Assembly: GCA_022616275.1 (NCBI GenBank)
Contig: JAKEFB010000046.1
Coordinates: forward strand, 1 to 64,000
Length of the DNA stretch: 64,000 nt
Direction of reading: 5' to 3'
Source: Chloroflexota bacterium
Lineage (GTDB): Bacteria; Chloroflexota; Anaerolineae; Promineifilales; Promineifilaceae
The notes below the pieces were generated by a model, which worked only from the letters and a program-made list of their open reading frames with translations, was not told the DNA's origin and did no database searches. Below, piece by piece: positions 6,127-29,514 of the stretch. Numbering within the stretch: the stretch's first letter is position 1; each line of letters starts with the position of its first letter. The translations under genes and the position numbers were made by a program.

Positions 6127-6164
6127 GCCCCGCCAGGCAAGTACGCGTCCGGCTCAAAGTAGAC

Positions 6165-6170
6165 TATAAT
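6165..6170 (+). promoter_or_regulatory. -10 box upstream of the cNMP-binding gene
   Basis: TATAAT stands 104 bp before the start of the cNMP-binding gene and after the hairpin ending the cyclase gene. No good -35 is visible. It would allow the effector gene its own transcript, with the 7-bp array at 6183-6259 in the 5' leader. Confidence 0.35.
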
Positions 6171-6182
6171 CAGGACTGAGGC

Positions 6183-6259
6183 TTGATAGTTGATAGTTGA
6201 CGGTTGATGGTTGGCAGTTGAAAGCTGATAGCTGGCAGCTTATAGCTGATAGCTATTTT
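6183..6259 (+). repeat. 7-bp tandem repeat (TTGATAG/CTGATAG, 11 units)
   Basis: Eleven contiguous 7-base units begin TTGATAG, TTGATAG, TTGACGG, TTGATGG and change to CTGATAG, CTGGCAG, CTTATAG. There are no spacers, so it is not CRISPR. It ends just before the GAGGAGAAA ribosome-binding site of the cNMP-binding gene. Another array using the same unit family is at 57,990-58,042. Confidence 0.85.
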
Positions 6260-6273
6260 ACGAGGAGAAACGT

Positions 6274-7056
6274 ATGCGAGAAGCTGTGGCCCTTAAACAC
6301 AATTACCTGTTCAGCCGGCTGGCTGAGGAGCGCCTGGCGGAAGTTGAGGCCAGCCTGGAAACTCGCTATTTGCAGGCGGGAGAAGTGCTCTTCAACATGG
6401 GTGATCCGGGCGACGAGTTGTTTATTGTCGAAAGCGGCCGGGTCGCGATTTATGCGCCCGACGACAAAAATCCGGGCCAGGAACAGCCCATCCGCATTTT
6501 TCGCACCGGCGGCGTGCTGGGGGAAATGGCCCTCATTGACCGCCAGCCGCGCTCGTTGAGCGCCCGCGCCCTGGAACCGTCCGCCGTCTACGTTCTCAGC
6601 GGCAACACCTTCCGGCAGCTTATTCGCGAAGACCCTGACATGGCTTACGCCGTGATGTACGGCCTGAGCGACCGCATTCGCTACACCACCGAGTTTCTGA
6701 ATGAAGTGCGGCAATGGGTCGGCCGGGTGACCCAGGGCGATTATGGCTCCCATCAATTCCTGGACGAGGTCCGCCACTGGGTCAAGCAGGTCGCCGAGGG
6801 TGAGTACCACGAAACGGTGGAGCGCAACGGCAAGTATCAGGACCAGACCCTGGCCACGCTGGCGGCCGAGTTTGCCCAAATGGCCGCCCGGGTCCAGGAG
6901 CGAGAGAATGAGCTGCGCCAGGAAATTGCCCAGCTCCGCATTGAAATTGACGAAACCAAACGCAAACAGGAAGTTTCCGAAATCACCGGCAGCGATTATT
7001 TTAAGTCCTTGAAAGAGCAAATCAAGTCCATGCGTGATCAACAAAGTGAAGAGTGA
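6274..7056 (+). CDS. Cyclic nucleotide-binding domain protein with C-terminal coiled coil
   Basis: 260 residues. The N-terminal 140 residues form a cNMP-binding domain. Its phosphate-binding cassette is recognisable as 'GGVLGEMALIDRQPRSLSAR' (Gly-Glu pair and the Arg that contacts the cyclic phosphate). The C-terminal half is highly charged and predicted helical ('QERENELRQEIAQLRIEID'), consistent with a coiled coil; there is no HTH, so it is not a CRP-type activator. GAGGAGAAA precedes the ATG. Coming directly after the cyclase, it is the likely cAMP effector, with partners bound through the coiled coil (inference). Confidence 0.88.
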   Translation: MREAVALKHNYLFSRLAEERLAEVEASLETRYLQAGEVLFNMGDPGDELFIVESGRVAIYAPDDKNPGQEQPIRIFRTGGVLGEMALIDRQPRSLSARALEPSAVYVLSGNTFRQLIREDPDMAYAVMYGLSDRIRYTTEFLNEVRQWVGRVTQGDYGSHQFLDEVRHWVKQVAEGEYHETVERNGKYQDQTLATLAAEFAQMAARVQERENELRQEIAQLRIEIDETKRKQEVSEITGSDYFKSLKEQIKSMRDQQSEE

Positions 7057-7309: not shown

Positions 7310-9997
7310 ATGAGTCCTAAACAGCACAGTGACAAATACGGCGAACTGCGCACATCTCTTGGAAAACTACCCTACATTAGCGCCTCCCAGGTCGAGCAAT
7401 GGGTCCAGTTACAGCAGACGATAGACGCCAGCCGCGATTACCTCATCCGGGCCGTCCCCCAGGCCCAGCAAAGCGTGGACGAAGCGCAAAAAATTCTGGC
7501 CCAACGCACCTATACTCTCGTCTTCTTCGGCGGCACGGGCGTGGGCAAGAGCACGCTCATTAACGCCCTGCTCAGCCGCAACCTGCTGCCCACCGGGGCC
7601 GTTACCGCCGTCACCGGCACGATCATTTACATCGAGCAGGCGGCCGAGGGCGAGGCCGAGTCCCTGACCCTGAGTTATTGGGGCCGGGACGAATTTGCCA
7701 GCCGCGTCCGCCGCCTCTGCCAGTTAGCCGGCATCGAGGGCTTTGACGTCACCAACGCCGGAGAGCGGGACCAGGCTCGCGAGACCATCCAGAAGATGAA
7801 GGAAGACAGCCGCGACGAGGCCAAGACCGAGCAGGATGAGTACCTGGACATCCTGGTAGACTGTCTGGATACCTACGAGGCCCACAAAGACCTCTTCACC
7901 AACGGGCCACCTCCGCCCCAGGCCTTTGCCCTGGACAACGAAGAAGCCCTGACCCACCTGCGCGAAGATGGTTTCAAGGGCAGCAAGAAGCGCCAGATCC
8001 GTCTGGTCAAGTCGGCTACCTTTAAGCTCCAGCCACGCGCCGGCCAGCCTAACCTGCTCATGAACGGCTATCTGCGTATTGTAGACGTGCCGGGCCTGGG
8101 CGCGGGGATGCGCCTTCACGAGGCCATTACCCTGGAGGAAATGAAGCGCGAAGACGCCATGATTGTCCTGGTCACCGACGCCGGCCGGCAGCGGGTGGAC
8201 GAAATGAAATCCCTCTCGGCCGTCAACTGGATCAAGGAAAACCGGCTCTTTGGCCTCAGCGGCAGCGACCTGGACGAGGCAGCGGCCAAAATCTTCCTGG
8301 CCGTCAACGGGGCCAACGTGCGCCAGGCTTTCGACCGGCTGAACGCCGGCCTGCCGGAAAGCGAGCGGGAAGTCAAAGAAGTGACCCGCTACATTGCCCC
8401 CAATTACTGGGAGCGGTACGAAAACCGGGGCAGCAACCGGCCGTACTTCCTGATCATGGCCCCACCGGCCCTTTACGTTCAGGACCCCGACCACGCGCCG
8501 GCCGAGTTTGCCAGCGAGACCGAGCGCATCCTCAAGGTCTTTGCCGACCAGTTGGGCAACGTGGACAAGAGCGACCCGCTCAACCCGGACACGAAGGAAG
8601 CGCTCCTGGCGCTGAGCGAGGTGCCCTTGCTGCGGCAGCGGCTGATTGATTTCATCCAGACCGAGCGAGTCCGCGGCCAGTTGCGCGAAGCCAGCACCCG
8701 CGTCCGCAACGCCCTGCAATCGCTGCGCTTCTACTACGAAAAACAACTGGCCGCCCGGGGCGTTCACCCACCCTTTGCCAGTAGCTGGCAAAGCCTGCAA
8801 GAACGGCGTTACGAAAACGTCCTGGCCCGGCAGCAGAAAGAGTTGCCGCGCGCCTTCCACGCCGCTCTGTTAGAGTTAAGCCAGCGCACCAACAGTAAAG
8901 AGCGTTTCCGCAACCTGTTGCAGCCCACTTTAAGCGGCGTGCGCAGCATGGTCCAGGACGCCGTCCAGCGCGAGGTAGAAACGCTACTGGAAAGTTACGG
9001 GACCGAGCATTGGGACGACCGCGACGTGACTTACGACAACCTGGTCTGGGGCACCAGCGGCATTGAAGTGCCGATCAAGCGCATCCTTTACCAGGTGGAG
9101 TTGGTGATGCAGGAAGCGGTGTCTAACTTTATGCCGGAAGTGGCCGAAGTCATGGCCAGCGAGCTGCAACGCACCCTGGAAGGCCACGACGTGCTCGGCC
9201 GCTTGCAGCGGTCCACCTACGGCCAGGCCTACAACTACACCCTGCCGGGCGACCCTGGCGCGGTCTACAACCTGGAAGAGGCCTACCAGCGCCTGGTCGA
9301 GCGGGTCGGCCAGAGTTTCCGCCACGTCTGCCAGCAGGCGACCATGTACGAGCTGGTCAAGCCGGAACGCTCCATTCACCACCGCGTCCGGGAAGGCGAA
9401 CAAGAACTGGCCCTGCCTGAAGACGACCGGCTGCTGGACGTGGTCCTGCACGGCGTAGACATCGTTCGCCGCGAGCTGGCCAGCCAGGCCCAGGCTGTTC
9501 TTAACAGCTCGGCCGCCCAGCGGGTGCGCGGCGCGGTCAACGCCACCAGTGGCGGCGCGGCCGAGCCGGAAGTGGCCCAGGAAGATATTGTCATCAACAT
9601 TCTCGACGGCAGCCCGGCGGCCGGCGAGGTAGACATCCGGCTGCCCGGCGAATCTGCCCCCGGCGGCTACGGCGACCTGGAAACGAGCTACGCCGAAAAG
9701 CTGGACAACATCGCCCTCAAGACCAACAAAATCTTCAGCGAGATCATCAACGACCTGTTCAGCGACGACGAGTTGCTGCCCCGCCTGCGCCGTCTCTTCT
9801 GGCTGGAAGCGACCCGGGTGGAGCGGGACTTCAACAACCACCTGGTCAAGCCGATGATCAAGCAGCACGACCGCAACCTGCACAAGGACGAGCTGCGCCA
9901 GGCGATGGAAATTGACCTGGAAACCGTCTCCGACGTGGAAGAGTTGATGCGCGTCTGGGATGGCCTGCACAAGCTGGAAGCGAAGTTGCCGGTCTGA
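7310..9997 (+). CDS. Dynamin-like large GTPase
   Basis: 895 residues with a G1 motif GGTGVGKST at 74-82 following a beta strand. A switch-I-like Thr cluster follows ('GAVTAVTGTIIYI'), and G3 is DVPG near residue 259. The long helical C-terminal part (about 480-895) is what bacterial dynamin-like proteins use for a stalk; no clear transmembrane paddle is seen. The G4 motif is not a canonical NKxD. ATG 7310 is chosen because GAAGGAAGG precedes it; upstream in-frame codons to 7199 have no ribosome-binding site. It ends 94 bp before the ubiquitin-pathway island, all on one strand, so it may remodel the membrane at which that system acts (inference). Confidence 0.75.
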   Translation: MSPKQHSDKYGELRTSLGKLPYISASQVEQWVQLQQTIDASRDYLIRAVPQAQQSVDEAQKILAQRTYTLVFFGGTGVGKSTLINALLSRNLLPTGAVTAVTGTIIYIEQAAEGEAESLTLSYWGRDEFASRVRRLCQLAGIEGFDVTNAGERDQARETIQKMKEDSRDEAKTEQDEYLDILVDCLDTYEAHKDLFTNGPPPPQAFALDNEEALTHLREDGFKGSKKRQIRLVKSATFKLQPRAGQPNLLMNGYLRIVDVPGLGAGMRLHEAITLEEMKREDAMIVLVTDAGRQRVDEMKSLSAVNWIKENRLFGLSGSDLDEAAAKIFLAVNGANVRQAFDRLNAGLPESEREVKEVTRYIAPNYWERYENRGSNRPYFLIMAPPALYVQDPDHAPAEFASETERILKVFADQLGNVDKSDPLNPDTKEALLALSEVPLLRQRLIDFIQTERVRGQLREASTRVRNALQSLRFYYEKQLAARGVHPPFASSWQSLQERRYENVLARQQKELPRAFHAALLELSQRTNSKERFRNLLQPTLSGVRSMVQDAVQREVETLLESYGTEHWDDRDVTYDNLVWGTSGIEVPIKRILYQVELVMQEAVSNFMPEVAEVMASELQRTLEGHDVLGRLQRSTYGQAYNYTLPGDPGAVYNLEEAYQRLVERVGQSFRHVCQQATMYELVKPERSIHHRVREGEQELALPEDDRLLDVVLHGVDIVRRELASQAQAVLNSSAAQRVRGAVNATSGGAAEPEVAQEDIVINILDGSPAAGEVDIRLPGESAPGGYGDLETSYAEKLDNIALKTNKIFSEIINDLFSDDELLPRLRRLFWLEATRVERDFNNHLVKPMIKQHDRNLHKDELRQAMEIDLETVSDVEELMRVWDGLHKLEAKLPV

Positions 9998-10090: not shown

Positions 10091-11308
10091 ATGACAGAAG
10101 ATTCTGCTCTTCAAACGATTCAATCGCTGCCGGACAGCCAGCACCTGGCTGCTTTTGCCGGCCGGCTGCGGGAGTGGCTGGTTAGCGACCTGAACAGCGG
10201 GGGGGAAAATCCCCCGGAGTTCACCGAGTCGCGGGCCAAAGCGCTGCTGCGCGCCGCCGCGGCCGTTGACGACCCGACCCTGAACGACTTTGCCCGGCTG
10301 GTGGAAAACGATTCGGTCGCCCGGGTGGCCCTCTACGATCTGCTCAAGGACAGCGCCCTGGGCGTCGAGCCGCAAGTGGCCGCCCTGGCCGGGCCGAGCC
10401 CGGCCGGCTCCGCCGCACTGGCCACGATTCCCTGGCTGTCGCTGGCCGTGGCCGCCTTTGCCTGGAAAAGTGGCTATCTGCTCCACCAGCTCGACCCGGC
10501 CTCGCCTCCCGGCGCCCATAGCCCGGCCGGACAACTCCTGAAACGGGCCGCCCATTACCTGCGCCAGCAGGTACAGCGCAGCGCCACCGAGCGCGACAAG
10601 CTGGGCCGCAAGCTGAGCCAGGCGCCGGCCGGGGCGCGTAGCCTGGAAGCGTTGCGCCCAGAAGCGCCTATTGCCCCGCTGCCGCCCCACTTCCGGCCGC
10701 CCATTCCCGTGCGTTACCCGGAAGTGGCCCGCGAGATGATACAGGTAGACCCGGCCGAATCGCCGCCGGCCACTCCCGCCCGGGGCGAGCCGCTGGTCAT
10801 TACCAACGAGGATTTGCCGGCCGAGCCGCGGCCGCCTGACGCCCCGGTGCGCATGCCGCCGATCACCATCGGCCAGGAACAGTTGACCCCCGAACGCCGC
10901 CGGCCGCCCACTCCCCTGCCCGGTTCGGCCGTGCTCATGCCCAATTCGTCGGTCGAGTCCCGGCCGAGCCTGACCGTGGCCTTGCGGCAAATGTTGGGCC
11001 AGGAGGAAATGAAGACAACCAAGCTGCACATCCTGGTCCAGGAATACCCGGACGGCCCCGGCCTGTACGGCCTGCAGGTGCGCGTCACCTGCCACGGCAT
11101 CAAAAGCTACGTGGCCGGTACCACCGACCGCGAGGGCAAGTTTGTCTGCGAGCTGCCTGTTCGCCTGCATGCCGGCCTGACCTACGACGTGGACGTGACC
11201 TGGCCGCGCGACGCCGGCGGCGACGTCGAGCGCAAATCCATCACCCTCAACGCCGACCGGACCTACTTTACTTTGCCCTTCTACCGCCGCTTGAACGCGC
11301 AAGGCTAA
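10091..11308 (+). CDS. Protein of unknown function with Pro-rich linker and Ig/prealbumin-like C-terminal domain
   Basis: 405 residues with three parts: a helical N-terminal region (1-175), a Pro/Arg-rich linker (180-290), and a C-terminal beta-rich domain (308-405). The last resembles carboxypeptidase-regulatory or prealbumin-like folds ('LYGLQVRVTCHGIKSYVAG', 'GLTYDVDVTW'). The linker holds two copies of a short peptide, 'PLVITNEDLP' (234-243) and 'PPITIGQEQLTP' (256-267). Versions of it recur in the CAP and RING proteins downstream, which is my reason for counting this gene in the island. No signal peptide, catalytic motif or named family is recognised. A scaffold or target of the Ubl pathway is one possibility, but this is inference. 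Confidence 0.6.
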   Translation: MTEDSALQTIQSLPDSQHLAAFAGRLREWLVSDLNSGGENPPEFTESRAKALLRAAAAVDDPTLNDFARLVENDSVARVALYDLLKDSALGVEPQVAALAGPSPAGSAALATIPWLSLAVAAFAWKSGYLLHQLDPASPPGAHSPAGQLLKRAAHYLRQQVQRSATERDKLGRKLSQAPAGARSLEALRPEAPIAPLPPHFRPPIPVRYPEVAREMIQVDPAESPPATPARGEPLVITNEDLPAEPRPPDAPVRMPPITIGQEQLTPERRRPPTPLPGSAVLMPNSSVESRPSLTVALRQMLGQEEMKTTKLHILVQEYPDGPGLYGLQVRVTCHGIKSYVAGTTDREGKFVCELPVRLHAGLTYDVDVTWPRDAGGDVERKSITLNADRTYFTLPFYRRLNAQG

Positions 11309-11410
11309 GGGGCAAGGGGCAAGTATGCAAGGAGGCAAGGGGCAAGTGGCAAGTGCTGTGCATACTCGCAAACTCGCTACCTGACACATGACACGTGATA
11401 CTTGACACAT
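11300..11410 (+). repeat. Mixed 7/8-bp repeat array
   Basis: GGGGCAA, GGGGCAA and GTGGCAA-type units are followed by CTGACAC, ATGACAC, GTGATAC and TTGACAC. The array starts at the stop codon of the preceding gene and runs to within a few bases of the CAP-protein start. Confidence 0.75.
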
Positions 11411-11414
11411 CCAC

Positions 11415-12089
11415 ATGAGTGACGACTGGCTGCAACTGACCGAAGAAGACATTGCCCGCGCCCAGCGGCTGACCCGCGCCCGGCCGGTGATGACCGAGAT
11501 TATCACCATTACGCGAGACGAGATTCCGGCCGAGCCGCCACCGGCCCCGCCCCGGCGCAATGAAGCCATCTTGACCATTACCCGGGAAGATTTGACGCCC
11601 ACCCCACCCCAGGCCAGCACGACGGCCGATTTGCGGGAGCTGGAGACGCTGATGTTTGCCCTGGTCAACACCGCCCGGCAGCACAACCTGCCCGGCTGGC
11701 TGGGCACGGCCCGCCTGAAGTGGCACGACGGCCTGGCGGCCGTCGCTCGGGGCCACTCGGCCGACATGCTGCGCCGCCAGTACGTGGCCCACGTGACGCC
11801 CGAAGGAATCACCGCTGCCCGCCGCATTGAGCGCCACGGCGTTGGCTACGTGGCCTGTGGCGAAAACATCGGCATCGTCTACGGCGAAACGACCAACATG
11901 GCCCAGGCCGTCCACGACATCCACAACGCCTTCATGAACCAGCCCCGCAGCCTGACCAACCACCGCGGCAACCTGCTCAACCCCATCTGGACCCACGTCG
12001 GCATCGGCGTGGCCTACACCCCCGACGGCTCCCTGGTCGCCACCCAAAACTTCATCTCCGCCCCGGCCGCCCGGCTGCGAGGGCGATAG
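11415..12089 (+). CDS. CAP (SCP/PR-1) domain protein without signal peptide
   Basis: 224 residues. The CAP core spans about 75-224 with the family landmarks 'RGHSADM', 'HVTPEG', 'CGENIG' and 'WTHVGIGVAY', including two histidines and a Glu of the usual cavity. CAP proteins are normally exported, but residues 1-70 here are acidic/Pro-rich and carry no hydrophobic signal. Instead they hold three repeats of one short peptide: 'LQLTEEDIA' (6-14), 'IITITRDEI' (29-37) and 'ILTITREDL' (52-60). The first closely matches the N-terminus of the RING-like protein at 16,451. The E1 gene follows after 25 bp. A cytosolic role inside the Ubl system is inferred. Confidence 0.82.
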   Translation: MSDDWLQLTEEDIARAQRLTRARPVMTEIITITRDEIPAEPPPAPPRRNEAILTITREDLTPTPPQASTTADLRELETLMFALVNTARQHNLPGWLGTARLKWHDGLAAVARGHSADMLRRQYVAHVTPEGITAARRIERHGVGYVACGENIGIVYGETTNMAQAVHDIHNAFMNQPRSLTNHRGNLLNPIWTHVGIGVAYTPDGSLVATQNFISAPAARLRGR

Positions 12090-12113
12090 GGGTGTACTCG
12101 CTAAGGAAAGTGT

Positions 12114-13289
12114 ATGACCGAAACCATCATCATTACCGACCCCGACACCGACCGCTACCACACGTTTGGCTACATCAGTTGGTGGCAGCAGGAGGTGGTG
12201 CGCCAGGCCACCATCCTGGTGGTTGGCGCCGGCGCGCTCGGCAACGAAGTGATTAAGAACCTGGCCCTCATGGGCATTGGCAACCTGCTCATTGCCGATT
12301 TCGACACCATCGAGGACAGCAACCTGAGCCGCTCGGTGCTCTTTCGCACCACGGATCGCGGCCGGCGCAAAGCCGAAGTCGCCGCCGCGGCCGTCAAAGA
12401 GCTGAACCCGGACGTTAACGTTAAGGCCTGGCACGGCGACATCAACTACGAGATGGGCCTGGGCGTTTTTCGCCACGTGGACGCCGTCATCGGTTGCCTG
12501 GACAACCGCGAGGCGCGCCTGTCGCTGAACCGCTTTAGCTGGGCCACCGGCCGGCCCTGGGTGGACGGCGCCATCCAGGAGCTGATGGGCATTGTCCGCG
12601 TCTTCTGGCCTGGCCAGGGGGCCTGCTACGAATGCACCCTCACCGACCAGGACTACCAGTTGATCAGCCTGCGCTACTCCTGCCCGCTGCTGGCCCGCGA
12701 AAATATCCTCCAGGGCAAAGTGCCCACCACCCCTACCAGCGCCTCCATCGTCGCCGCCTTCCAGACCCAGGAAGCGCTCAAGCTCATTCATGGCCTGGAG
12801 GTCCAGCCGGGCAAGGCGCTGATGATCAACGGCCTGACCAACGACGTCTACACCACTGAGTACCCGGTCAAAGAAGAGTGTCTCAGCCATTCCCGGCTGG
12901 AACCCATCGAAGAGCTGCCCGGCGCCACCGCCACCGGCGCCACCCTGTGCGACCTGTTGAACCTGGCCCGGGAGCGCCTGGGACCGGAAAGTGTGCTAGA
13001 ATTCGACAGCGAAATGGTCGTCGCCATGCGCTGCCCGGAGTGCGGCCGGGAGACGCCCGTTTTCAAACGAATGGCCCGGCTCTACGAGAGCGAGTTCGCC
13101 TGCCCGGCCTGCGGCGGCCGGCGCGAGATGCGCCTCACTCACCGCCTCACCGGCGACGAAGAGTACCTGGACCTTTCCCTGGCCGATTTTGACGTGCCGC
13201 CGCTGGCCATCATTCGCGCCCGCAACGGCCGGGAGCGGCTCTATCTGGAATTGACCGGCGACAAAGAAATCTTTTTACGCTTTAAGTGA
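12114..13289 (+). CDS. E1-like ubiquitin-activating enzyme (ThiF/MoeB/UBA fold)
   Basis: 391 residues. The Rossmann-type adenylation domain shows GAGALG at 38-43, D62 and D64 in 'IADFDTIEDSNLSR', R73, K86, and 'CLDNREAR' with D130, all standard E1/ThiF ATP and Mg contacts. C190 in 'RYSCPLL' is the likely thioester cysteine. Zinc-type pairs are C171/C174 plus a later 'CPECG...CPACG' ribbon, an insertion not found in plain MoeB. The C-terminal part may bind E2. It would adenylate the C-terminal Gly of the Ubl encoded next (after 115 bp holding a 42-bp palindrome) and pass it to the E2. The N-terminus, 'TETIIITDPD', resembles the short island peptide. Confidence 0.92.
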   Translation: MTETIIITDPDTDRYHTFGYISWWQQEVVRQATILVVGAGALGNEVIKNLALMGIGNLLIADFDTIEDSNLSRSVLFRTTDRGRRKAEVAAAAVKELNPDVNVKAWHGDINYEMGLGVFRHVDAVIGCLDNREARLSLNRFSWATGRPWVDGAIQELMGIVRVFWPGQGACYECTLTDQDYQLISLRYSCPLLARENILQGKVPTTPTSASIVAAFQTQEALKLIHGLEVQPGKALMINGLTNDVYTTEYPVKEECLSHSRLEPIEELPGATATGATLCDLLNLARERLGPESVLEFDSEMVVAMRCPECGRETPVFKRMARLYESEFACPACGGRREMRLTHRLTGDEEYLDLSLADFDVPPLAIIRARNGRERLYLELTGDKEIFLRFK

Positions 13290-13291
13290 GG

Positions 13292-13333
13292 TTAGGTTGC
13301 AGGTGTCAGAGCGCTCTGACACCTGCAACCTAA
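13292..13333 (+). repeat. Perfect 42-bp palindrome between E1 and Ubl genes
   Basis: Left arm 13,292-13,312 and right arm 13,313-13,333 are exact reverse complements with no loop bases. It contains the GTGTCAG heptamer used in the tandem arrays. As RNA it would form a long hairpin that could terminate the E1 message or protect the 5' end of a Ubl transcript. Confidence 0.85.
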
Positions 13334-13403
13334 TAGCCCCAATTCTCGTAATACCTTTCAATACCTGTTATGTAAGCAACAATGGAGGCTTTAGTTAGTA
13401 AAA

Positions 13404-13670
13404 ATGGCTAGTGTGAAAGTAATCATCTACGACCCGACTGGCTCGAAGAAAACCCCGGTTGAGCTACCGGATGACGTGCCGATGCGCCGCCTGATCCCGG
13501 CCCTGGTCAGCAAGATGGGCCTGCCCACCAACCAGGGGGCCAACCCCATCACCTATCGCCTGGACCACCGGGCCTCCGGCAAGCGCCTGGCCGACGATGA
13601 TTCCCTGAGCGACGCCGGCGTATCCGAAGACGACATCCTCAGCCTGTTCCCGGAAGTAACGGCCGGCTAA
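13404..13670 (+). CDS. YukD/EsaB-like ubiquitin-like protein ending in free Gly
   Basis: 88 residues with a beta-grasp pattern: strand 'VKVIIYDPTG', second strand, helix 'MRRLIPALVSKMG', strand 'YRLDHRASGKRL', and the ubiquitin-like turn 'LSDAGVSEDDILSLFPEV'. The chain stops at '...EVTAG', so the C-terminal glycine is already exposed and needs no peptidase maturation. Length and the 'DDDSLSDAGV' segment fit the YukD-like class. A GGAGG lies rather far from the ATG (about 15 bases), so the start region may be unusual. The flanking genes (E1 before, E2 after) make it the conjugated modifier. No ESX/type VII secretion genes occur in the window. Confidence 0.88.
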   Translation: MASVKVIIYDPTGSKKTPVELPDDVPMRRLIPALVSKMGLPTNQGANPITYRLDHRASGKRLADDDSLSDAGVSEDDILSLFPEVTAG

Positions 13671-13688
13671 CGGAGTTGGAGTTTTGGT

Positions 13689-13740
13689 AACTGCTCAGGC
13701 CGGTCATGAGACCGGCCACAGCTAGAGAGGCTGAGTAGTT
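13689..13740 (+). repeat. Nested hairpin after the Ubl gene; interspersed repeat copy 2 (13,698-13,732)
   Basis: The outer stem AACTGCTCAG pairs with CTGAGTAGTT and the inner stem GGCCGGTC with GACCGGCC (loop ATGA). The inner part is the interspersed repeat also seen at 1245-1280. Together with the 42-bp palindrome upstream it brackets the Ubl gene with strong RNA structures. Confidence 0.75.
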
Positions 13741-13766
13741 ACGAGTTTTGAGTTAGAGTTAAACCT

Positions 13767-14303
13767 ATGTCTTTCGACATTCGCGAAACCCGGTTGCGCA
13801 ACGACCATAACCGCCTGCGTGACCTGGTCAACCGCAGCGATCTCATCCATATCATGGCCACCGAAGGTGAGCCGCCGGAGAAATATCTGATCCGGTTCAC
13901 CTGCCGGGGTGTGGAAAAGCTGTCTCCGGGCGGAACGCCGGTTTACCGGGAGTTGCACGAAGTCAGCATCTACCTGCACGCCGAGTACCCGCTCAAGCAG
14001 CCACAGTTGAAATGGCTCACCCCCATTTTCCATCCCAACATTCACAGCACGGGGGCGGTCTGCATCGGGGCCTGGTGGCCGGCCAAGACGCTGGATGAAC
14101 TGCTGTTAACCCTGGGCGAGATGGTGCAGTATAAAAACCTCGGCCCCAAGGATCCGATGAACTCCAAGGCGGCCGCCTGGGCGCTACGCAATAAGCACCT
14201 CTTCCCCATAGACAGCCGGCCGCTCAAGGGCCAGTCGCTGGAAGACCAGATCGTGATCATGATGGACGAGGAAACGAATGACCTCGGCATCAACATCCTC
14301 TGA
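13767..14303 (+). CDS. E2-like ubiquitin-conjugating enzyme
   Basis: 178 residues with a clear UBC fold. 'YPLKQPQLKWLTPIFHPNIH' is followed by 'GAVCIGAWWPAKTLDELLL', then 'LGPKDPMNSKAAAWALRN'. The HPN motif is H89-P90-N91 and the catalytic cysteine is C99. The eight-residue step from Asn to Cys equals that of eukaryotic E2s, and 'W-PA-T' plus the 'DP' segment also match. The enzyme would accept the Ubl from E1 as a thioester and transfer it to lysines. The JAB gene overlaps its 3' end by 26 bp, so the two are translationally coupled. The C-terminal acidic tail (about 160-178) is extra relative to a minimal UBC. Confidence 0.93.
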   Translation: MSFDIRETRLRNDHNRLRDLVNRSDLIHIMATEGEPPEKYLIRFTCRGVEKLSPGGTPVYRELHEVSIYLHAEYPLKQPQLKWLTPIFHPNIHSTGAVCIGAWWPAKTLDELLLTLGEMVQYKNLGPKDPMNSKAAAWALRNKHLFPIDSRPLKGQSLEDQIVIMMDEETNDLGINIL

Positions 14304-15219
14304 TCTGGCCGCCGCCAGGGAAGCCAACCCCTCGGGAGGGCAACCTGTCACCGCCCAGCCTGTTGTCGGGCAGCAGGCTACGGTGACGGCCGGCCGGCCG
14401 GAGCTGGAAGGATTGCCGCAGCGACCGGCCCGGCCCGGCGGGTTGAACGGCGCGGCCGTCCATCTGCACGGCCGTGAGCCGGCCCCTGGCCAGGTACAGG
14501 TCACCGTTGGCCAGGCCGCGCTGCGGCAAATTGAGGCCCACGGGGCCAGCAACCTGCGCAGCGAAGTGGGCGGCGTCTTGCTCGGCCACGCCAGCCAGGA
14601 TAACGGCCGGATTGTAGTCGAAGTCCTGGCCGCCTTGCCGGTCGTCACCGACGACCACGGCCCCGTCCACTTTACCTTCACCGCCGACGCCTGGGCCCAG
14701 TTGCACCAGGACCGCACTGCCCGCTACCCGACCTTGCAGATCGTCGGCTGGTTCCACACCCACCCTGACCTGGGCGTCTTTTATTCGTCCGACGATGTGG
14801 TCGTCCACTCGGTCGCCTTCGTCCTGCCCTGGCACGTCGGCCTGGTGCTGGACCCGGTGCGCAACGAGGGCTCTTTCTTTGGCTGGCAGCCCGGCCCGGC
14901 CGGCGCGCCCGGCGACACGCCGGGCGACGACACGCCGGACAGCGATACATCCGGCGGCGAGCCGGAGTACGAGCTGGCCCCGCTGAATGGTTATTATGAA
15001 CTCCTGGACGAACAGGCCGGCAGCGTGGCCAACTGGCGGGTGGTCAGGACGACCGTCTGGCGCCAGGGGGCGCCGGATGGCTTCCTGGCCAGCCAGGTCT
15101 ACCTGCCGTCCACCGGCTGGCCGGCCCTGCCGCCGATCAGCCCCTGGGTGGGCGCGATCCTGGGCGGCCTCAGCCTGCTCATTAGTTTAATTCTGCTGCT
15201 GGAGCGGCTGCTTAACTAA
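14278..15219 (+). CDS. JAMM/JAB-domain isopeptidase with C-terminal membrane anchor
   Basis: 313 residues. The metalloprotease motif is complete: E96 in 'SEVGGVLLG', H160 and H162 in 'FHTHPDLGVFYSSDD', S170 and D173 (HxH-x7-S-x2-D). The N-terminal 60 residues are low-complexity. The last 25 residues ('ISPWVGAILGGLSLLISLIL' and on) form one transmembrane helix, giving a tail-anchored enzyme facing the cytosol. It overlaps the E2 gene by 26 bp in another frame. The role is removal of the Ubl from conjugates, probably at the membrane. The Ubl itself needs no trimming, so deconjugation is likelier than maturation. Confidence 0.92.
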   Translation: MTSASTSSDLAAAREANPSGGQPVTAQPVVGQQATVTAGRPELEGLPQRPARPGGLNGAAVHLHGREPAPGQVQVTVGQAALRQIEAHGASNLRSEVGGVLLGHASQDNGRIVVEVLAALPVVTDDHGPVHFTFTADAWAQLHQDRTARYPTLQIVGWFHTHPDLGVFYSSDDVVVHSVAFVLPWHVGLVLDPVRNEGSFFGWQPGPAGAPGDTPGDDTPDSDTSGGEPEYELAPLNGYYELLDEQAGSVANWRVVRTTVWRQGAPDGFLASQVYLPSTGWPALPPISPWVGAILGGLSLLISLILLLERLLN

Positions 15220-15282
15220 GTGTCAGGTGTCAAGTGTCAAGTGTCACGTTCTACTTGGCACTTGACACCTGACACTTGACAC
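15220..15282 (+). repeat. 7-bp tandem array folding on itself (GTGTCAN x4, loop, NTGACAC x4)
   Basis: Four GTGTCAG/A/C units, one GTTCTAC unit, then TTGGCAC, TTGACAC, CTGACAC, TTGACAC: nine 7-base units starting the base after the stop codon. The second half is the reverse complement of the first, so the RNA forms a long hairpin between the two JAB genes. Confidence 0.9.
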
Positions 15283-15292
15283 GGAACACAAG

Positions 15293-16399
15293 ATGATGAC
15301 TGAACCAAACGAACCAACCTACGCTGCCGTTATTACCATTTCGCTGCCGGGTGCGGACAAGGCCGTCAATCTGGTCGTGACCCTCACTCCGGCCGCGCCG
15401 GTAGCCGTAGGCAACGGCCGGGTCAAGCCGCTGCGTGATTGCACCCTGGCCGAGCTGCAGCAATTTGCCGACGCCGTCGAGGCCGGTATCCTGGCCCAGT
15501 ACGAAAACGCCCGGCTGGCCGACCTGGCCCGCCAGGAGCCGGCCCAGATCAACGTGACCATCCTGGACGCGGCCGACGCGCCGCAGCCGGTCGAAAGTAT
15601 GCTGGAGCATGCTATCGTCTTCCCGGAGCCGGCCCAGGAAGCGGCGACTGAGGCCGAGGCCACGCCCCCGGCCGGTGAAACAACGCCTGGGCTGGAAACC
15701 CCGGCCGCCCCTGGAGAGGAAGTTCCTGCAGAGGAAACCGCTACAGAGGAAGCGACTTCAAAAGAAGAGGCCGAAGAGTTGGAACCGGAAGTCTCGGTGT
15801 CCGAATCAGAGCCGGTCTACCAGGAGCGCGAGGCCCCACCGGTGGCCGAGACGCCAGTGGCTGTCCCCTCACGGGTCCGCATCCTGGGCAAGCGCCGGCC
15901 GCTGCACCACCCCACCTGGACGGCCGTGGACATCCTCATGAACGAGCCGGCCTTCCGCGACGCCCAGGCCCACTCGTTGACCAGCCTGGACCGGGAAGTG
16001 GCCGGTATCCTGATCGGCCCGCCGCCGGAAAAGCAGCCGGACGGCCGCTACGTCGTCCACGTCAGCGACACCATTATTGCCAGGCACACCAAGATGCAAG
16101 GGGCCAGCGTCACCTACACGCCGGAAAGCTGGCGCTACGTCAACGATAAGCTGGCCGAAATGTATCCCGACGAAACGGCCGTCATCGTCGGCTGGTATCA
16201 CACTCACCCTGGCTTTGGCATCTTCCTGTCCAGCATGGACCAGTTCATTCACCAGAACTTTTTCACCCAGATCTGGCACGTCGCCCTGGTGCTGGACCCC
16301 CTGGCCCGGCGCAGCGGCTTCTTCTGCTGGGACCGCTATAAGTCGCGGGTAGACCGTTACGAATTTCCCTGGCCTGAGTGGGCGGGGGATTCGTGGTAA
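15293..16399 (+). CDS. Second JAMM/JAB-domain isopeptidase, soluble, with acidic linker
   Basis: 368 residues: an N-terminal domain of unknown type (1-110), a Glu/Pro-rich linker (111-190), then a JAB domain with E235 ('REVAGILIG'), H303, H305, S313 and D316 in 'YHTHPGFGIFLSSMD'. All metal and catalytic residues are present. No membrane segment is seen, in contrast to the preceding JAB. The N-terminal region contains 'AAVITISLPG', loosely like the short island peptide. Two intact JABs in one pathway suggest different substrates or locations. The start could be the first or second of two adjacent ATGs. Confidence 0.92.
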   Translation: MMTEPNEPTYAAVITISLPGADKAVNLVVTLTPAAPVAVGNGRVKPLRDCTLAELQQFADAVEAGILAQYENARLADLARQEPAQINVTILDAADAPQPVESMLEHAIVFPEPAQEAATEAEATPPAGETTPGLETPAAPGEEVPAEETATEEATSKEEAEELEPEVSVSESEPVYQEREAPPVAETPVAVPSRVRILGKRRPLHHPTWTAVDILMNEPAFRDAQAHSLTSLDREVAGILIGPPPEKQPDGRYVVHVSDTIIARHTKMQGASVTYTPESWRYVNDKLAEMYPDETAVIVGWYHTHPGFGIFLSSMDQFIHQNFFTQIWHVALVLDPLARRSGFFCWDRYKSRVDRYEFPWPEWAGDSW

Positions 16400-16402
16400 A
16401 AT

Positions 16403-16440
16403 GGTAATTGGTTAGTGGTCGTTACCACTAACCAATTACC
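16403..16440 (+). repeat. 7-bp repeat hairpin, 17-bp perfect stem
   Basis: GGTAATT, GGTTAGT, GGTCGTT, ACCACTA, ACCAATT and onward. Bases 16,403-16,419 pair exactly with 16,424-16,440 around CGTT. It lies four bases after the JAB stop and eleven before the RING-like start. Confidence 0.88.
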
Positions 16441-16450
16441 AATAACAACT

Positions 16451-16879
16451 ATGGACGACGAAGAACAGTTTATCCGCATCACCGCCGACGACATTGCCGA
16501 GGCCAACCGGCTGAGTTTGAGCTGCCCGATTTGCGCCAGCGCCGTGGAGAACAACGTGAATGCGCCGGCCCTGGCCCCGGTGGTCTGCGCTAACTGCCAG
16601 ACCCTCTACCACGCCGCCTGCTGGGAGCAAAACGGCAGCAAGTGCGCCATCCTGGGCTGCGGCCACCGCCAGGCCCGCCCCTATGGCGTGCCGGCCGCCG
16701 CCCGCCTGGTCATCCGCCACGCCGACCTGCCTGTCCACGTGCCCCGCGCCCCCGTACCCAACGGCCGCAACCAGCAGCTCAAGGAACAGGAAAAGCGCCT
16801 GCAGCAGGAAAGGGCGCGCCGTGACTTCTGGAACAACCTGGTCCAGAATATCTTGCGAGCATTTGGATGGCGGCGCTAA
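16451..16879 (+). CDS. RING-like zinc treble-clef protein (candidate E3), soluble
   Basis: 142 residues. Zinc ligands are C25/C28 ('CPICAS'), C46/C49, H54, C57, C65 and C70 in 'VCANCQTLYHAACWEQNGSK' and 'CAILGCGH'. This is the bacterial RING-related pattern (HxxCW, CxxxGC) rather than a textbook C3HC4 RING. Residues 1-22 ('DEEQFIRITADDIAEANRLS') closely match the N-terminus of the CAP protein. The C-terminus is a charged helix ('LKEQEKRLQQERARRDFW'). ATG 16,451 is used because upstream in-frame codons lie inside the repeat hairpin. It is the likely E2-binding specificity factor (inference from context and fold). Confidence 0.8.
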   Translation: MDDEEQFIRITADDIAEANRLSLSCPICASAVENNVNAPALAPVVCANCQTLYHAACWEQNGSKCAILGCGHRQARPYGVPAAARLVIRHADLPVHVPRAPVPNGRNQQLKEQEKRLQQERARRDFWNNLVQNILRAFGWRR

Positions 16880-17355
16880 GAGCCATTCTAATTGACAAAC
16901 GGTCGCCTTTCCTGGGGGAAGCCTGCGCCCTTTGCAAACACCCCTTTTCGCCCGGTGAAGAGATCGTCATCTGCCCGGAGGACGCCACCCGCCATCACGT
17001 CCACTGCTGGCGGGCCTACGGCAACCGCTGCACCGCCTACGGCTGCACCGGCCATGGCGAGGTCGTCGAAGCAACGCCGGCCCAACCACGGCCGGCGGCC
17101 TCACCCGGCCGCGTCCGCCCGGCCGGCGACGAAGAAACCAAGGTCCGCACGCTGCCAGCCACCGGCTTCCACTGCGCCCAAAGCTGCCTGGTCATCGCCA
17201 TTGCCGTGGCCATCGTCTTCTTTTCCATCGGCTGCTTTGGCCTGTGGGCTATCGCCGATTACATCATGCTGGAGATGCTCCACTGGAGCTACCGGCCGCC
17301 CTTCCCCGGCCTCCTTCCCCCGCTAACTCTCACCCTCTCTCTGCTTCTCACATAG
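16867..17355 (+). CDS. RING-like treble-clef membrane protein
   Basis: 162 residues overlapping the previous gene by 13 bp. The zinc segment is C20/C23, C36, H43/H44, C47, C55 and C60 ('RHHVHCWRAYGNRCTAYGC'). It shares the HxxCW and CxxxGC pattern of its neighbour, but one expected cysteine is replaced by Asp39. A transmembrane helix follows ('LVIAIAVAIVFFSIGCFGLW', about 115-135), perhaps with a second hydrophobic segment at the end. It appears to be a membrane-bound paralogue of the soluble RING-like protein, which pairs well with the tail-anchored JAB. The stop codon lies in the first bases of a strong 18-bp hairpin. Confidence 0.72.
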   Translation: MAALRAILIDKRSPFLGEACALCKHPFSPGEEIVICPEDATRHHVHCWRAYGNRCTAYGCTGHGEVVEATPAQPRPAASPGRVRPAGDEETKVRTLPATGFHCAQSCLVIAIAVAIVFFSIGCFGLWAIADYIMLEMLHWSYRPPFPGLLPPLTLTLSLLLT

Positions 17356-17538: not shown

Positions 17539-19044
17539 ATGGCGACTAAATACCAGGCTTTACTCGAAAAAGTTCACGAAATCTACGACCTCCGCAAAGC
17601 AGCCCGCGTCCTGACCTGGGACCGGGAAACGGTCATGCCCAGGGGCGGCGACGCCGACCGGGTAGACCAGATCACCACCCTGCGCAAGCTTAGCCACGCC
17701 CTGTTTACCTCCGACGAGATGGGCGAGCTGATTGAAGCGGCCGCCGCCGAGCTGAACGGGGTTGCCTACCACAGCCTGGAAGCCAGCCTGGTCCGTTTTC
17801 TTAGCCGCGACTATGCCAGCGCCCGCAAGCTGCCGGCCGCCTTCGTCGCCCAGCAGACGGCCGCCAACAACCAGGCCACGGCCGTCTGGAAGCAGGCCCG
17901 CGCCGAGGACAACTTTGCCCTCTTCCAGCCCTGGCTGGAGCGCGTCGTCGAGCTGGCCCGCGAAATGGCCAGGCTGTACGGCTACCAGGACGATTTGTAC
18001 GACGCCCTGCTCGACAAATATGAGCCGGGGGCCAAAACGGCCGACGTCCGGGCCATCTTCGAGGCCGCCAAAAACGCCCTCATCCCCCTTTACCAGGCCG
18101 TCGGCCGGCGCCGCCTGGCGGTGGACAACCGCATCCTCCGCCAGCCCTTCGACGTGGCCCGCCAGGCCCAACTGGCCCACTACCTGGCCACGGCCGTCGG
18201 CTACGACTTTGACCGCGGCCACCTGGCCACGGCCGTCCACCCCTTCTCCACCAGCCTGTCGCCCAACGACGTGCGCATTACTACCCGTTACGACCCATAC
18301 TTCCTGGGTATGGCCATGTTCGCCACCCTCCACGAGTCCGGCCACGCCATGTACGTGCAGAACGTCCACCCCGCGCTGAACCGCACGCCGCTGGCTGAGG
18401 AAACGTCGGCCGGGCTGGACGAGTCCCAATCCCGGCTGGTGGAGAACTTCGTCGGCCGCAGCCGGGGCTTCTGGCGGGTCCACCTGCCCCGGGTCCAGGA
18501 GTTCTTCCCCAGCCAGTTGGGCCAGGTCAGCGTAGAACAATTCTATCGAGCCGTCAACAAGGTCGAGCCGGGTTTCATTCGCGTCGAGGCCGACGAGCTG
18601 ACTTATAACATGCACATCATTTTGCGCTTTGAGCTGGAACAGGCCCTGCTGGCCGGCCGCCTGGTCGTGGCCGACCTGCCGGCCGCCTGGAACCAAAAGA
18701 TGAAGGAGTTCCTGGGTATCGTCCCGCCCACCGACCGCCAGGGCGTGCTCCAGGACATCCACTGGACGATGATGGGCTTTGGCTACTTCCCGACCTATAC
18801 CCTGGGTAACCTTTACGCGGCCCAGTTCTACGAAGCGGCCGTTGAGCAAAACCCCAGCCTGCTTGAGGAGATGGCCGCCGGCCGTTTCGGCGCTCTGCTC
18901 GACTGGATGCGGCAATACGTCCACCAGCACGGCCGCAAGCTGACCCCGGCCGAGATCGTCACCCAGGCCACCGGCCGCCCCCTCAGCCACCACCCCTTCG
19001 TCCGCTACGCCACAGCCAAGTACAGCGAAATTTACGGTCTGTAG
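17539..19044 (+). CDS. M32-family metallocarboxypeptidase (first of tandem pair)
   Basis: 501 residues, the usual length for carboxypeptidase Taq-type enzymes. The zinc motif HESGH lies at 265-269 within 'TLHESGHAMY', and family blocks 'HPFSTSLSPNDVRITTRY' and 'GLDESQSRLVENFVGRSRGF' are present. M32 enzymes trim C-terminal residues from cytosolic peptides using zinc or cobalt. No signal peptide is present. The next gene is a close paralogue 47 bp downstream, so this is a tandem duplication. Neighbouring Ubl-pathway genes may be coincidental; the hairpin and promoter between them argue for a separate transcript. Confidence 0.95.
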   Translation: MATKYQALLEKVHEIYDLRKAARVLTWDRETVMPRGGDADRVDQITTLRKLSHALFTSDEMGELIEAAAAELNGVAYHSLEASLVRFLSRDYASARKLPAAFVAQQTAANNQATAVWKQARAEDNFALFQPWLERVVELAREMARLYGYQDDLYDALLDKYEPGAKTADVRAIFEAAKNALIPLYQAVGRRRLAVDNRILRQPFDVARQAQLAHYLATAVGYDFDRGHLATAVHPFSTSLSPNDVRITTRYDPYFLGMAMFATLHESGHAMYVQNVHPALNRTPLAEETSAGLDESQSRLVENFVGRSRGFWRVHLPRVQEFFPSQLGQVSVEQFYRAVNKVEPGFIRVEADELTYNMHIILRFELEQALLAGRLVVADLPAAWNQKMKEFLGIVPPTDRQGVLQDIHWTMMGFGYFPTYTLGNLYAAQFYEAAVEQNPSLLEEMAAGRFGALLDWMRQYVHQHGRKLTPAEIVTQATGRPLSHHPFVRYATAKYSEIYGL

Positions 19045-19080
19045 CCTACAAAAGTCTTGAGAGACTTTTGTAGGCTACAG
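19039..19080 (+). terminator. 19-bp perfect hairpin between the M32 genes
   Basis: 19,039-19,057 pairs exactly with 19,062-19,080 (loop TGAG). It covers the first stop codon and ends next to AGGAGAAA, the ribosome-binding site of the second gene, so it may cut or modulate read-through. Confidence 0.6.
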
Positions 19081-19091
19081 AGGAGAAACAA

Positions 19092-20603
19092 ATGCCAAGC
19101 GAGACCAAATTTAACACCCTTCTGGAAAAGATTTACGAAATTAACGACCTGCAAAAAGCCAGCGCCTTGCTGGGCTGGGACCGGCAGGTGAATATGCCCA
19201 AGGCCGGCGTTATGGCCCGCGCCCAGCAACTGGCCACGCTGAACCGGATTGTCCACACCACCTTTACTGCCGACGAAATGGGCGAGCTGATCGAAGCGGC
19301 CGCCGCCGAATTGAACGGGGCCAGTTACGACAGCGACCAGGCCAGCCTGATCCGCTACCTGCGCGAGAGCTACGCCGACTCCCGCAAATTGCCGGCCGAG
19401 TTCGTCGTCCGCCGGACGATGATCAGCAACCAGGCCCACGCCGCCTGGGAGCAGGCCCGCGAAAAGGACGACTTTGCCTCCTTCCGGCCGTGGCTGGAAA
19501 AAATCATCGGCCTGGCCCAGGAAATGGCCGGCTATTACGGTTACGAAGACGAAAAGTACGACGCCCTGCTCGACCAATACGAGCCGGACATGAAAACGGC
19601 CGAGGTCCGGGCCATTTTCCAGGCCCTGAAAGAGAGCCTGGCGCCCCTGGTTGAAGCCATTCGGGAGCGGGGCCGGCCGCTGGACGACGCCATCCTTCAC
19701 CAGGCCTACGTAATTGCCCGGCAAGAGCAATTTGTTCGGGCCATGGCCACGGCCGTCGGCTACGATTTCTCCCGTGGCCACCTGGGCACGGCCGTTCACC
19801 CCTTTGCCGCCAGCTTTTCGCGGGACGACGCCCGCATCACCACCCGCTGGTATGCCGATTTTCTCAGCCCGGCCCTCTTCGGTACCCTCCACGAGTCCGG
19901 CCACGCCATGTATGAGCAGGGCACGCACCCCGACCTGGCCCGCACCCCGCTGGCCCGGGGCGCCTCGATGGGCATTCACGAGTCGCAGTCGCGGATGATC
20001 GAAAACATTGTCGGCCGCAGCCGGGGTTTCTGGCAGGCCCACTTCCCCAAACTGCAAGAGATATTCCCGGAGCAGTTGGGCCAGGCCACGGCCGGCGACT
20101 TCTACCGGGCGATTAACAAGGTCCAGCCCTCCTTGATCCGCGTTGACGCCGACGAGCTGAGCTACAACCTGCACATCATCCTGCGCTTTGAGCTGGAGCA
20201 GGCCATGCTCAACGGCGACCTGGTCGCTGCGGATGTGCCCGCCGCCTGGAACGACAAAATACGCCAGTTGTTGGGCGTCGTTCCGCCCACCGACCGGGAT
20301 GGCTGCCTGCAAGACGTTCACTGGTCTACCCCCAGCTTCGGCTACTTCCCCACCTACGCCCTGGGCAACCTTTACGCCGCCCAGTTCTACGAAACCGCCC
20401 AGCAGCAAGACCCGGCCGTCGGCCAGGAGCTGGCTGAAGGCAAAACGACGGCGCTCCTGGCCTGGCTGCGCGAAAACATCCACCAGCACGGCCGCAAATT
20501 CACCCCGGCCGAACTGGTCCAGCGAGCCACCGGCCGCCCCCTCAGCCACGACCCCTTCCTCCGCTACGCCACCGCCAAATTCAGCGAAGTCTACAACCTC
20601 TAG
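19092..20603 (+). CDS. M32-family metallocarboxypeptidase (second of tandem pair)
   Basis: 503 residues, aligned end-to-end with the preceding gene ('GMGELIEAAAAELNG'-type blocks and the C-terminal 'TGRPLSH.PF.RYATAK' are shared). HESGH is at 267-271 in 'TLHESGHAMYEQG'. 'GIHESQSRMIENIVGRSRGF' replaces 'GLDESQSRLVENFVGRSRGF', so this copy has the more typical HESQSR. AGGAGAAACAA precedes the ATG. Two paralogues probably differ in substrate preference. A 19-bp palindrome follows the stop. Confidence 0.95.
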   Translation: MPSETKFNTLLEKIYEINDLQKASALLGWDRQVNMPKAGVMARAQQLATLNRIVHTTFTADEMGELIEAAAAELNGASYDSDQASLIRYLRESYADSRKLPAEFVVRRTMISNQAHAAWEQAREKDDFASFRPWLEKIIGLAQEMAGYYGYEDEKYDALLDQYEPDMKTAEVRAIFQALKESLAPLVEAIRERGRPLDDAILHQAYVIARQEQFVRAMATAVGYDFSRGHLGTAVHPFAASFSRDDARITTRWYADFLSPALFGTLHESGHAMYEQGTHPDLARTPLARGASMGIHESQSRMIENIVGRSRGFWQAHFPKLQEIFPEQLGQATAGDFYRAINKVQPSLIRVDADELSYNLHIILRFELEQAMLNGDLVAADVPAAWNDKIRQLLGVVPPTDRDGCLQDVHWSTPSFGYFPTYALGNLYAAQFYETAQQQDPAVGQELAEGKTTALLAWLRENIHQHGRKFTPAELVQRATGRPLSHDPFLRYATAKFSEVYNL

Positions 20604-26907: not shown

Positions 26908-26917
26908 ACGAGCCGCT

Positions 26918-29453: not shown

Positions 29454-29456
29454 GCG

Positions 29457-29505: not shown

Positions 29506-29514
29506 AAAGTAGTG

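Follow-up and report, generated by a model that had tools for sequence, protein, structure and literature searches.

Most of the bacterial ubiquitin-like systems that have been studied are sporadic immune operons. RING-containing operons that also encode a YukD-like ubiquitin-like protein (Ubl), an E1, an E2 and a JAB protease were reportedly proposed as a conjugation system by Burroughs, Iyer and Aravind in 2011. Here we describe a locus of this kind from a Chloroflexota bacterium (GCA_022616275.1, contig JAKEFB010000046.1, forward strand, positions 1-64,000; GTDB lineage Bacteria; Chloroflexota; Anaerolineae; Promineifilales; Promineifilaceae); this whole stretch of 64,000 nucleotides is referred to as the window. 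At 12114-17355 it encodes, co-directionally, an E1, a Ubl, an E2, two JAMM proteases and two RING-like zinc proteins, and upstream of the E1 lie genes for a dynamin-like GTPase, a protein of 405 amino acids (aa) and a CAP protein. A short strand-like motif recurs in the E2 tails, the dynamin linker, the CAP protein, the 405-aa protein and the first RING protein. In our opinion, the E1, E2, Ubl, RING and JAMM homologues probably attach the Ubl and remove it again at the inner face of the membrane, where the tag would likely recruit the dynamin-like GTPase through Ubl-binding motifs.

The genes for the YukD-like Ubl, E1, E2, JAB and RING proteins stand together in one operon, which is the core reported for the 2011 type, and we regard the window system as a variant of that type, not as new in kind. 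To those operons the present loci appear to add the dynamin, 405-aa and CAP genes, extensions behind a TAG end of the Ubl, Ubl::E2 and GntR::E1 fusions, and a charge-matched motif. What is new here is the invariant TAG end with its varied extensions, the recurring short motif, and a motif charge opposite to that of Ubl helix α1. The initial annotation had taken the whole set to be new: the dynamin/405-aa pair is indeed recurrent, while the CAP gene proved optional and the core type reportedly goes back to 2011. It was silent on both fusions, the TAG extensions and the shared motif.

Bacterial operons with E1, E2, JAB and Ubl genes were described by Iyer et al. 2006 (PMC1779556), in a table of which YukD stays with ESAT-6 secretion and the 6d E2s lack the classical His. 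The Bub and Bil systems are discussed in PMC13373217 and PMC11354881. In passages of the latter, BilABCD shares E1, E2, Ubl and JAB with the window system, but BilA has two Ubl domains, whereas the window Ubl (88 aa) has one YukD domain, and BilD combines an inactive with an active adenylation domain, whereas the window E1 (391 aa) has one ThiF domain; the BilD model of PADLOC matches this E1 only partially (residues 34-97). No RING is named for BilABCD in those passages, whereas the window has two RING-like proteins. Type II CBASS (cyclic oligonucleotide-based antiphage signalling system)/E1-E2 fusions are one polypeptide, whereas E1 and E2 are separate genes in the window, and no CD-NTase match is listed for the ten proteins (dynamin to RINGtm) in Pfam or PADLOC (for the E1, among the best 25 of 33 PADLOC families). 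The experimentally reconstructed cascade of Caldiarchaeum subterraneum is archaeal and ubiquitin-based (PMC5654768), whereas the window system has a YukD-like Ubl. Among titles and abstract openings of the open-access literature, a scope that leaves out most subscription papers and all preprints, we found no bacterial GntR::E1, dynamin-linked system or SIM-like motif (SIM, SUMO-interacting motif).

Three operon types and their conserved components

The gene order of the window recurs in the contigs of named genomes, for which the best 80 of 138 relatives were used; these include the named strains Pelolinea submarina MO-CFX1 and Leptolinea tardivitalis YMTK-2. Database relatives were restricted to the best 120 of 354, 204 and 550 proteins. 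Loci L013, L014 and L016 were left out as belonging to the same genomes as L041, L079 and L099; L054 was left out of the E2 counts (its frame contains N), and the Ubl of L094, which is cut by the contig end, was dropped as well. In the window type (41 loci, the window included) the order is E1-Ubl-E2-JABtm-JAB2-RING1-RINGtm on a single strand. Where loci are long enough, Ubl is present in 38/38, E1 in 30/32, JABtm in 33/33, JAB2 in 28/28, RING1 in 25/25 and RINGtm in 19/25.

The sister type of Anaerolineales (45 loci) has a Ubl::E2 fusion in 44/45 loci, with none in L015; its parts also include a free Ubl and a JAB. All 33 of its E1s that were scanned carry an N-terminal GntR winged-helix domain (e.g., L074:7043-8743), and 39 E1s are at least 500 aa long; GntR::E1 would be a Ubl-activating enzyme with a predicted DNA-binding head. 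Its RING protein has two to five hydrophobic segments (40/40), a membrane-protein cluster of 37 loci (36 of this type and L071) showed FHA in both members scanned, and a neighbour cluster of 40 loci showed VWA in all four scanned. The third type is represented by the Armatimonadetes contig L071. It encodes two E2s, a Ubl, an E1, three RING-like proteins and two JABs, of which one carries LysM. The second of these E2s has 204 database relatives, including proteins named as Armatimonadota, Syntrophomonadaceae and Abditibacteriota. On this contig (13007-13987 and 13988-16127) the JAB-LysM protein has a hydrophobic segment, and the three RING-like membrane proteins lie between two E2/JAB sets. By eye, rplK/rplA/rplJ-like genes precede the Anaerolineales operon (e.g., L018, L087, L091, L099), and a LexA-like gene in opposite orientation lies beyond it in 12 loci; the ribosomal linkage holds in only 13/32 loci and is not a general rule of the type.

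The ten open reading frames (ORFs) of the initial annotation lie where it placed them, with their domains confirmed by Pfam (Table 1). Its label 'Ig-like' for the 405-aa protein did not hold, as this protein matches no significant Pfam or NCBIfam family, only Pollen_Ole_e_1 at E = 0.08. The residues that it had singled out hold across the alignments of the loci; the main positions of the window were confirmed on its DNA. The E1 candidate C190 is invariant (77/77), as are G38, G40 and G43 (75/75). This E1 also carries Cys pairs resembling zinc ligands, and its C-terminal domain, a putative counterpart of the ubiquitin-fold domain (UFD) region, aligns with the end of eukaryotic E1s; a model of the whole E1, within which that domain was searched, aligns through residue 383 with SAE2 (root-mean-square deviation, rmsd, 3.8) and with UBA1 chains (rmsd 5-6). 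H89, P90 and C99 of the E2 occur in 12/12 aligned sequences and N91 in 10/12, giving a eukaryote-like HPN...C active site. T86-A87-G88 of the Ubl is invariant in all 84 complete Ubls of the loci, and in 80 of them TAG is the exact end; the other four (L025, L030, L049, L086) extend it by 2-5 residues. Among the best 120 third-lineage Ubls, TAG stands near the end in 116, being exactly terminal in 67 and followed by 1-10 varied residues in 49, and it is retained in the fused Ubl ahead of the E2 domain. An invariant TAG with variable extensions resembles a processed precursor, and the extended Ubls may be cut by the JAMM proteases. That the Ubl instead serves sulfur transfer or type VII secretion is, in our judgement, very improbable: the E1 is related to ThiF/MoeB, the Ubl is a member of the YukD family and the genome does encode one WXG100 protein, but the Ubl is conserved together with RINGs, an HPN-type E2 and a pair of JAMMs, and the WXG100 gene sits on a different contig (contig C190).

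Both JAMM proteases are full, as had been annotated. In the first JAB, E96, H160, H162, S170 and D173 are each found in 39/39 sequences; in JAB2, E235, S313 and D316 are found in 30/31, and H303 and H305 in 29/30. The zinc ligands of the two RING-like proteins are invariant, namely C37, C40, C58, C61, H66, C69, C77 and C82 of RING1 (29/29) and C20, C23, C36, H43, H44, C47, C55 and C60 of RINGtm (23/23). The membrane versions of eraser and E3 candidate are also borne out: a hydrophobic segment follows the JAMM domain in 37/39 first JABs, the other two ending at a contig edge, and the zinc finger in 23/23 second RING proteins, whereas the hydropathy scan found such a segment in 0/34 JAB2 and 0/29 RING1. 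RING1 has no useful match in the PDB (best E 0.045), and its Prok-RING_1 match (1.2e-06, 28.8 bits) falls just below the cut-off of 29.1, which RINGtm passes. The overlaps of E2 with JAB (14278-14303) and of RING with RING (16867-16879) are real by ORF coordinates. The start of RING1 may be the Met at 16451 instead of the GTG codon (16415), because several relatives begin at that Met.

Co-occurrence in related genomes, a check set beforehand, is conserved: the operon recurs, and an E2 profile matches 48 of 53 genomes of the window's family, including 17/17 of those with a completeness of 90% or more and no more than 5% contamination. A search with the window E2 itself had 12 matches in 301 Chloroflexota genomes, its own genome included. 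Among 298 genomes of the class the profile has 31 matches, 17 within the family and 14 in others, one of the latter being doubtful (E = 5.3e-04, two internal stops). The presence of E2 in all good family genomes points to core-like equipment and speaks against a sporadic defence island. We therefore consider it improbable that the locus is an anti-phage operon of Bil, Bub or CBASS kind that tags phage proteins, even though known bacterial E1-E2-JAB systems are mostly immune, PADLOC has partial matches between its E1-E2 models and the E1 (best 4e-17) and between its JAB models and the JABs, and its models of Leo-type GTPases hit the dynamin (5.3e-11). Among the ten proteins from dynamin to RINGtm, PADLOC has no match to E2, Ubl or the RINGs, and no NCBIfam model passes its cut-off. 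In addition, 10 window-type loci have a carboxypeptidase-like gene 3' of the operon, as would suit a settled place in the chromosome.

A dynamin-like GTPase lies in front of the operon, as had been annotated; to our knowledge, the Caldiarchaeum cascade has none. In the window-type loci with enough upstream sequence, dynamin is found in 13/23, the 405-aa gene in 14/23 and CAP in 7/23. The CAP proteins show no hydrophobic segment in the hydropathy scan (0/13), so no signal peptide is seen. The three genes would be unrelated neighbours of the operon on another view, which their absence beside it in 10, 9 and 16 of the 23 loci favours. This is, however, distinctly unlikely in our opinion. The 405-aa gene lies elsewhere in 10 of the 11 window-type genomes without a copy in the fetched locus, the same 10 genomes carry a dynamin at E <= 1e-20, the two genes share one contig in 8 of the 10, and the motif is present in all three proteins. 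In window-type genomes, dynamin and the 405-aa protein thus recur as a pair, and CAP is optional. Neither member of the pair was found in the L063 genome or in the tested genomes of other types (L071, L074, L082). The off-operon 405-aa copies in G605, G606 and G607 have one TAG within the matched range, which may mark either a gene end or a broken copy.

A recurring short motif and the charge of Ubl helix α1

The motif occurs in two classes. Class a, Phi-x-[IVL]-[TSR]-x-[DEN]-[DE]-Phi, is found, with the window's own proteins included, in 12/13 CAP proteins (28 copies versus 0.15 in shuffled sequences), 17/20 405-aa proteins (18 versus 0.20) and 25/29 RING1 proteins (25 versus 0.05). It occurs in no window-type E1, E2, Ubl, JABtm, RINGtm or dynamin, in 1/34 JAB2, and in none of 30 other window ORFs (16,464 aa). 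Genome-wide it has 11 matches versus 0 in the reversed control; one is in CAP, and the others are mostly in apparently folded or unrelated frames, one being an antitoxin-like tail. This 85-aa antitoxin-like frame (by eye), L133 (G000:C120:42291-42313, minus strand), ends with VTITDEDIAEARREMW and a short tail, and closely resembles the N-terminus of RING1; this likeness is possibly convergent.

Class b, an acidic residue and then Phi-x-I-x-Phi, stands at the end of 113 of the best 120 database E2s (3.6 in shuffled tails), the remaining seven having similar or slightly internal versions. The tail is kept even in loci without an E2/JAB overlap (L032, L061, L062, L063); therefore, gene overlap is not its cause. 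The dynamin linker, otherwise divergent in sequence, has class b in 15/17 proteins versus 4.0 shuffled (strict form 10 versus 0.39); the two others are cut there, and two copies are seen by eye. The genome pattern [DE]-Phi-x-I-[NSKR]-I-Phi has 6 matches in 8.5 Mb and 1 in the reversed control, two of the six being the dynamin linker (9584) and the E2 tail from which the pattern was derived. Among the best 120 third-lineage E2s, the loose pattern lies in the last 45 residues of 113 (32.7 shuffled) and the strict one in the last 12 residues of 94 (1.7 shuffled). In the Anaerolineales type, Ubl::E2 instead ends in a basic tail, [KR](x)Phi-[KRHT]-Phi-[KRH], in 39/44 (3.9 shuffled), as do 17/36 E1 (1.5) and 26/40 VWA proteins (1.4). 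It is rare in JAB (1/38) and absent from FHA proteins (0/37), and so is no general feature of these.

The net charge of α1, taken over 15 residues, is +2 to +3 in the window type (40/40) and +1 to +4 in the third lineage (116 of the best 120 measured, the other 4 being without an α1 measurement), versus -3 to -1 in free (43/43) and -3 to 0 in fused (44/44) Anaerolineales Ubls. The last 20 residues of E2 carry a mean charge of -5.8, -5.2 and +6.5 in the window type, third lineage and Anaerolineales, respectively. Motif charge is thus opposite to that of α1 in all three lineages, an acidic motif meeting a basic helix twice and the reverse once. The strongest switch is at position 29, which is Arg in 40/40 window-type Ubls and Glu/Asp in 43/43 of Anaerolineales. 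Positions 15, 33, 37 and 39 shift in the same sense; positions 3, 5, 10, 45, 47, 61 and 78 differ too, some of them in the opposite sense. A control over all 15-residue stretches of five aligned components, window type versus Anaerolineales, replaced an initial comparison of whole-domain with helix charge. Opposite signs with at least two charges on both sides occur in 3/73 stretches of the Ubl, all at α1, and in none of E2 (0/134), E1 (0/371), JAB (0/104) or RING (0/23).

The groove of SUMO that holds its SIM lies between β2 and α1 and carries basic residues at one of its ends; in SAE2, an E1 subunit, a SIM sits at the very C-terminus (both from PMC12687455). As the α1 flip falls where SUMO holds this groove, we take the motif, with moderate confidence, to be a bacterial SIM-like reader element: a hydrophobic strand with flanking charge opposite to the β2-α1 face of the Ubl. 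It would differ from SUMO SIMs in that the partner is a YukD-like Ubl, the charges are reversed in one lineage, and binding is predicted here. The motifs might instead bind another hub (a RING, the N-terminal region of JAB2, a lipid) or be kinase sites. The class a copies, in which Thr is followed by acidic residues, do look like kinase or FHA sites, the Anaerolineales type carries an FHA protein, the antitoxin-like tail in the same genome is similar, and there is only one charge switch. We nevertheless find this alternative rather unlikely, as among Ubl, E1, E2, JAB and RING (JAB2 N-terminal region and FHA protein lying outside this comparison) the one strongly reversing stretch is α1 of the Ubl, and positions 15, 29, 33, 37 and 39, which shift together, fall in the region of the SIM groove of SUMO (PMC12687455).

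It should be noted that several points weigh against reading the motif as SIM-like and the operon as a tagging system. The motif patterns were drawn up after the sequences had been seen, and class a alone is not specific as a finder, as only 1/11 genome matches is in the operon. Across the three lineages the reversal of charge amounts to a single evolutionary switch, which is why the reader-motif reading is only moderate; for the third lineage, Ubls and E2s were each gathered by their own search, both occurring in one genome only in L071. With at least one charge as the criterion, reversal extends to 13/73 stretches of the Ubl, 0/134 of E2, 1/371 of E1, 5/104 of JAB and 0/23 of RING. The whole Ubl is negative in every type (-1.6, -7.8, and -4 in L071), so the flip is local to α1. 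An AlphaFold2 model of a Ubl::E2 fusion (A4) is too poor to show docking of its basic tail on the Ubl in cis (mean predicted local distance difference test, pLDDT, 59.6; tail <50). The zinc fingers are C4HC3-like, and E3 activity of both RING proteins is an assumption. Finally, the 405-aa protein is found among the 298 class genomes in the same 17 family members as E2, with none in the 14 E2 carriers outside the family and a single weak match (E = 4.4e-05) in a genome that lacks E2; such co-occurrence within a single family could reflect shared descent, and it covers the 405-aa protein, not dynamin.

Proposed tagging mechanism

The conjugation pathway of the initial annotation is supported by domains, active sites, gene neighbourhood and whole-genome evidence, conjugation itself being a prediction from sequence. 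The JAMM proteases would trim Ubl precursors to ...TAG. Judging from active sites and fold, the E1 would adenylate the Gly of TAG and form a thioester at C190, and its UFD-like C-terminal domain would pass the Ubl to C99 of the E2. RING1 and the membrane RING would promote transfer to substrates, and the membrane and soluble JAMMs would erase the marks. The acidic Phi-x-Phi motifs of RING1, CAP, the 405-aa protein, the dynamin linker and the E2 tail would dock in the basic β2-α1 face of the Ubl in the manner of SIMs on SUMO, a step suggested by the recurrence of the motif and the reversal of charge.

Hydrophobic anchors, present on one of the JAMMs and one of the RINGs, a dynamin with tandem motifs, and membrane partners with LysM, VWA and FHA in the other types point to the envelope. 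PF00227 (proteasome/HslV family) has no match in the genome, while the same search was positive for 10 of the 14 genomes used as controls; this makes proteasomal or HslV-type degradation unlikely and speaks for a use other than degradation. In our opinion, the best reading is that proteins near the membrane are reversibly marked with the Ubl, which would recruit dynamin. More tentatively, and with somewhat less than even confidence, the system may amount to a ubiquitin-like code with readers, in which a charge-matched SIM-type motif ties E2, E3, dynamin and scaffolds to the Ubl and membrane marks direct remodelling by dynamin.

If so, the SIM groove would be older than SUMO, and the GntR::E1 of Anaerolineales would couple tagging to DNA binding. 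If the tag recruits dynamin, ubiquitin-style signalling in bacteria becomes directly testable, and the relatives in named strains bring experiments within reach. The system, which includes membrane anchors, candidate E3s and an eraser, looks like family-wide core equipment and provides a test case for the origin of non-covalent reader motifs on bacterial Ubls.

Locus layout and neighbouring genes

Table 1. Features of the operon and of the genes in front of it, in window coordinates
Feature	Position	Strand	Match or detail
Dynamin-like GTPase, 895 aa	7310..9997	+	Dynamin_N 7.4e-12 (Pfam)
Dynamin linker motif copies	9584-9604; 9626-9646	+	DIVINIL; EVDIRLP
405-aa protein, Pro-rich linker	10091..11308	+	motif LVITNEDL 10793-10816
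CAP-domain protein	11415..12089	+	CAP 2e-11 (Pfam)
CAP motif copies	11430-11453; 11502-11525; 11571-11594	+	
E1 adenylation domain protein, 391 aa	12114..13289	+	ThiF 2.5e-54; GAGALG
E1 candidate catalytic C190 codon	12681-12683	+	
YukD-like Ubl, 88 aa	13404..13670	+	YukD 1.3e-11; end TAG 13659-13667
E2	13767..14303	+	UQ_con 1e-14; HPN 14031-14039; C99 14061-14063
E2 C-terminal acidic motif	14277-14300	+	NDLGINIL
First JAMM protease (JABtm)	14278..15219	+	JAB 1e-10; C-terminal hydrophobic segment 15145-15201
Second JAMM protease (JAB2), long N-terminal region	15293..16399	+	JAB 2.3e-08
RING1, C4HC3 zinc finger 16523-16660	16415..16879	+	motif IRITADDI 16472-16495
RINGtm, zinc finger 16924-17046	16867..17355	+	hydrophobic segment 17188-17244; Prok-RING_1 2.5e-09

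Just upstream of the dynamin gene, the stretch 2027-7056 encodes a protein that has two nucleotide-cyclase domain matches and an AAA domain, and after it a cyclic nucleotide-binding (cNMP-binding) protein. These cyclase and cNMP-binding genes are not among the conserved neighbour clusters listed and were rejected as parts of the system. Directly downstream of the operon, at 17539-20603, are two tandem M32-type carboxypeptidase genes, the first confirmed by Pfam and the second recognised by eye. Genes for response regulators and PAS/GAF histidine kinases are densely packed at 20762-36455; among them, the 1510-aa ORF at 22375-26907 shows, by eye, a repeated PAS-like unit.

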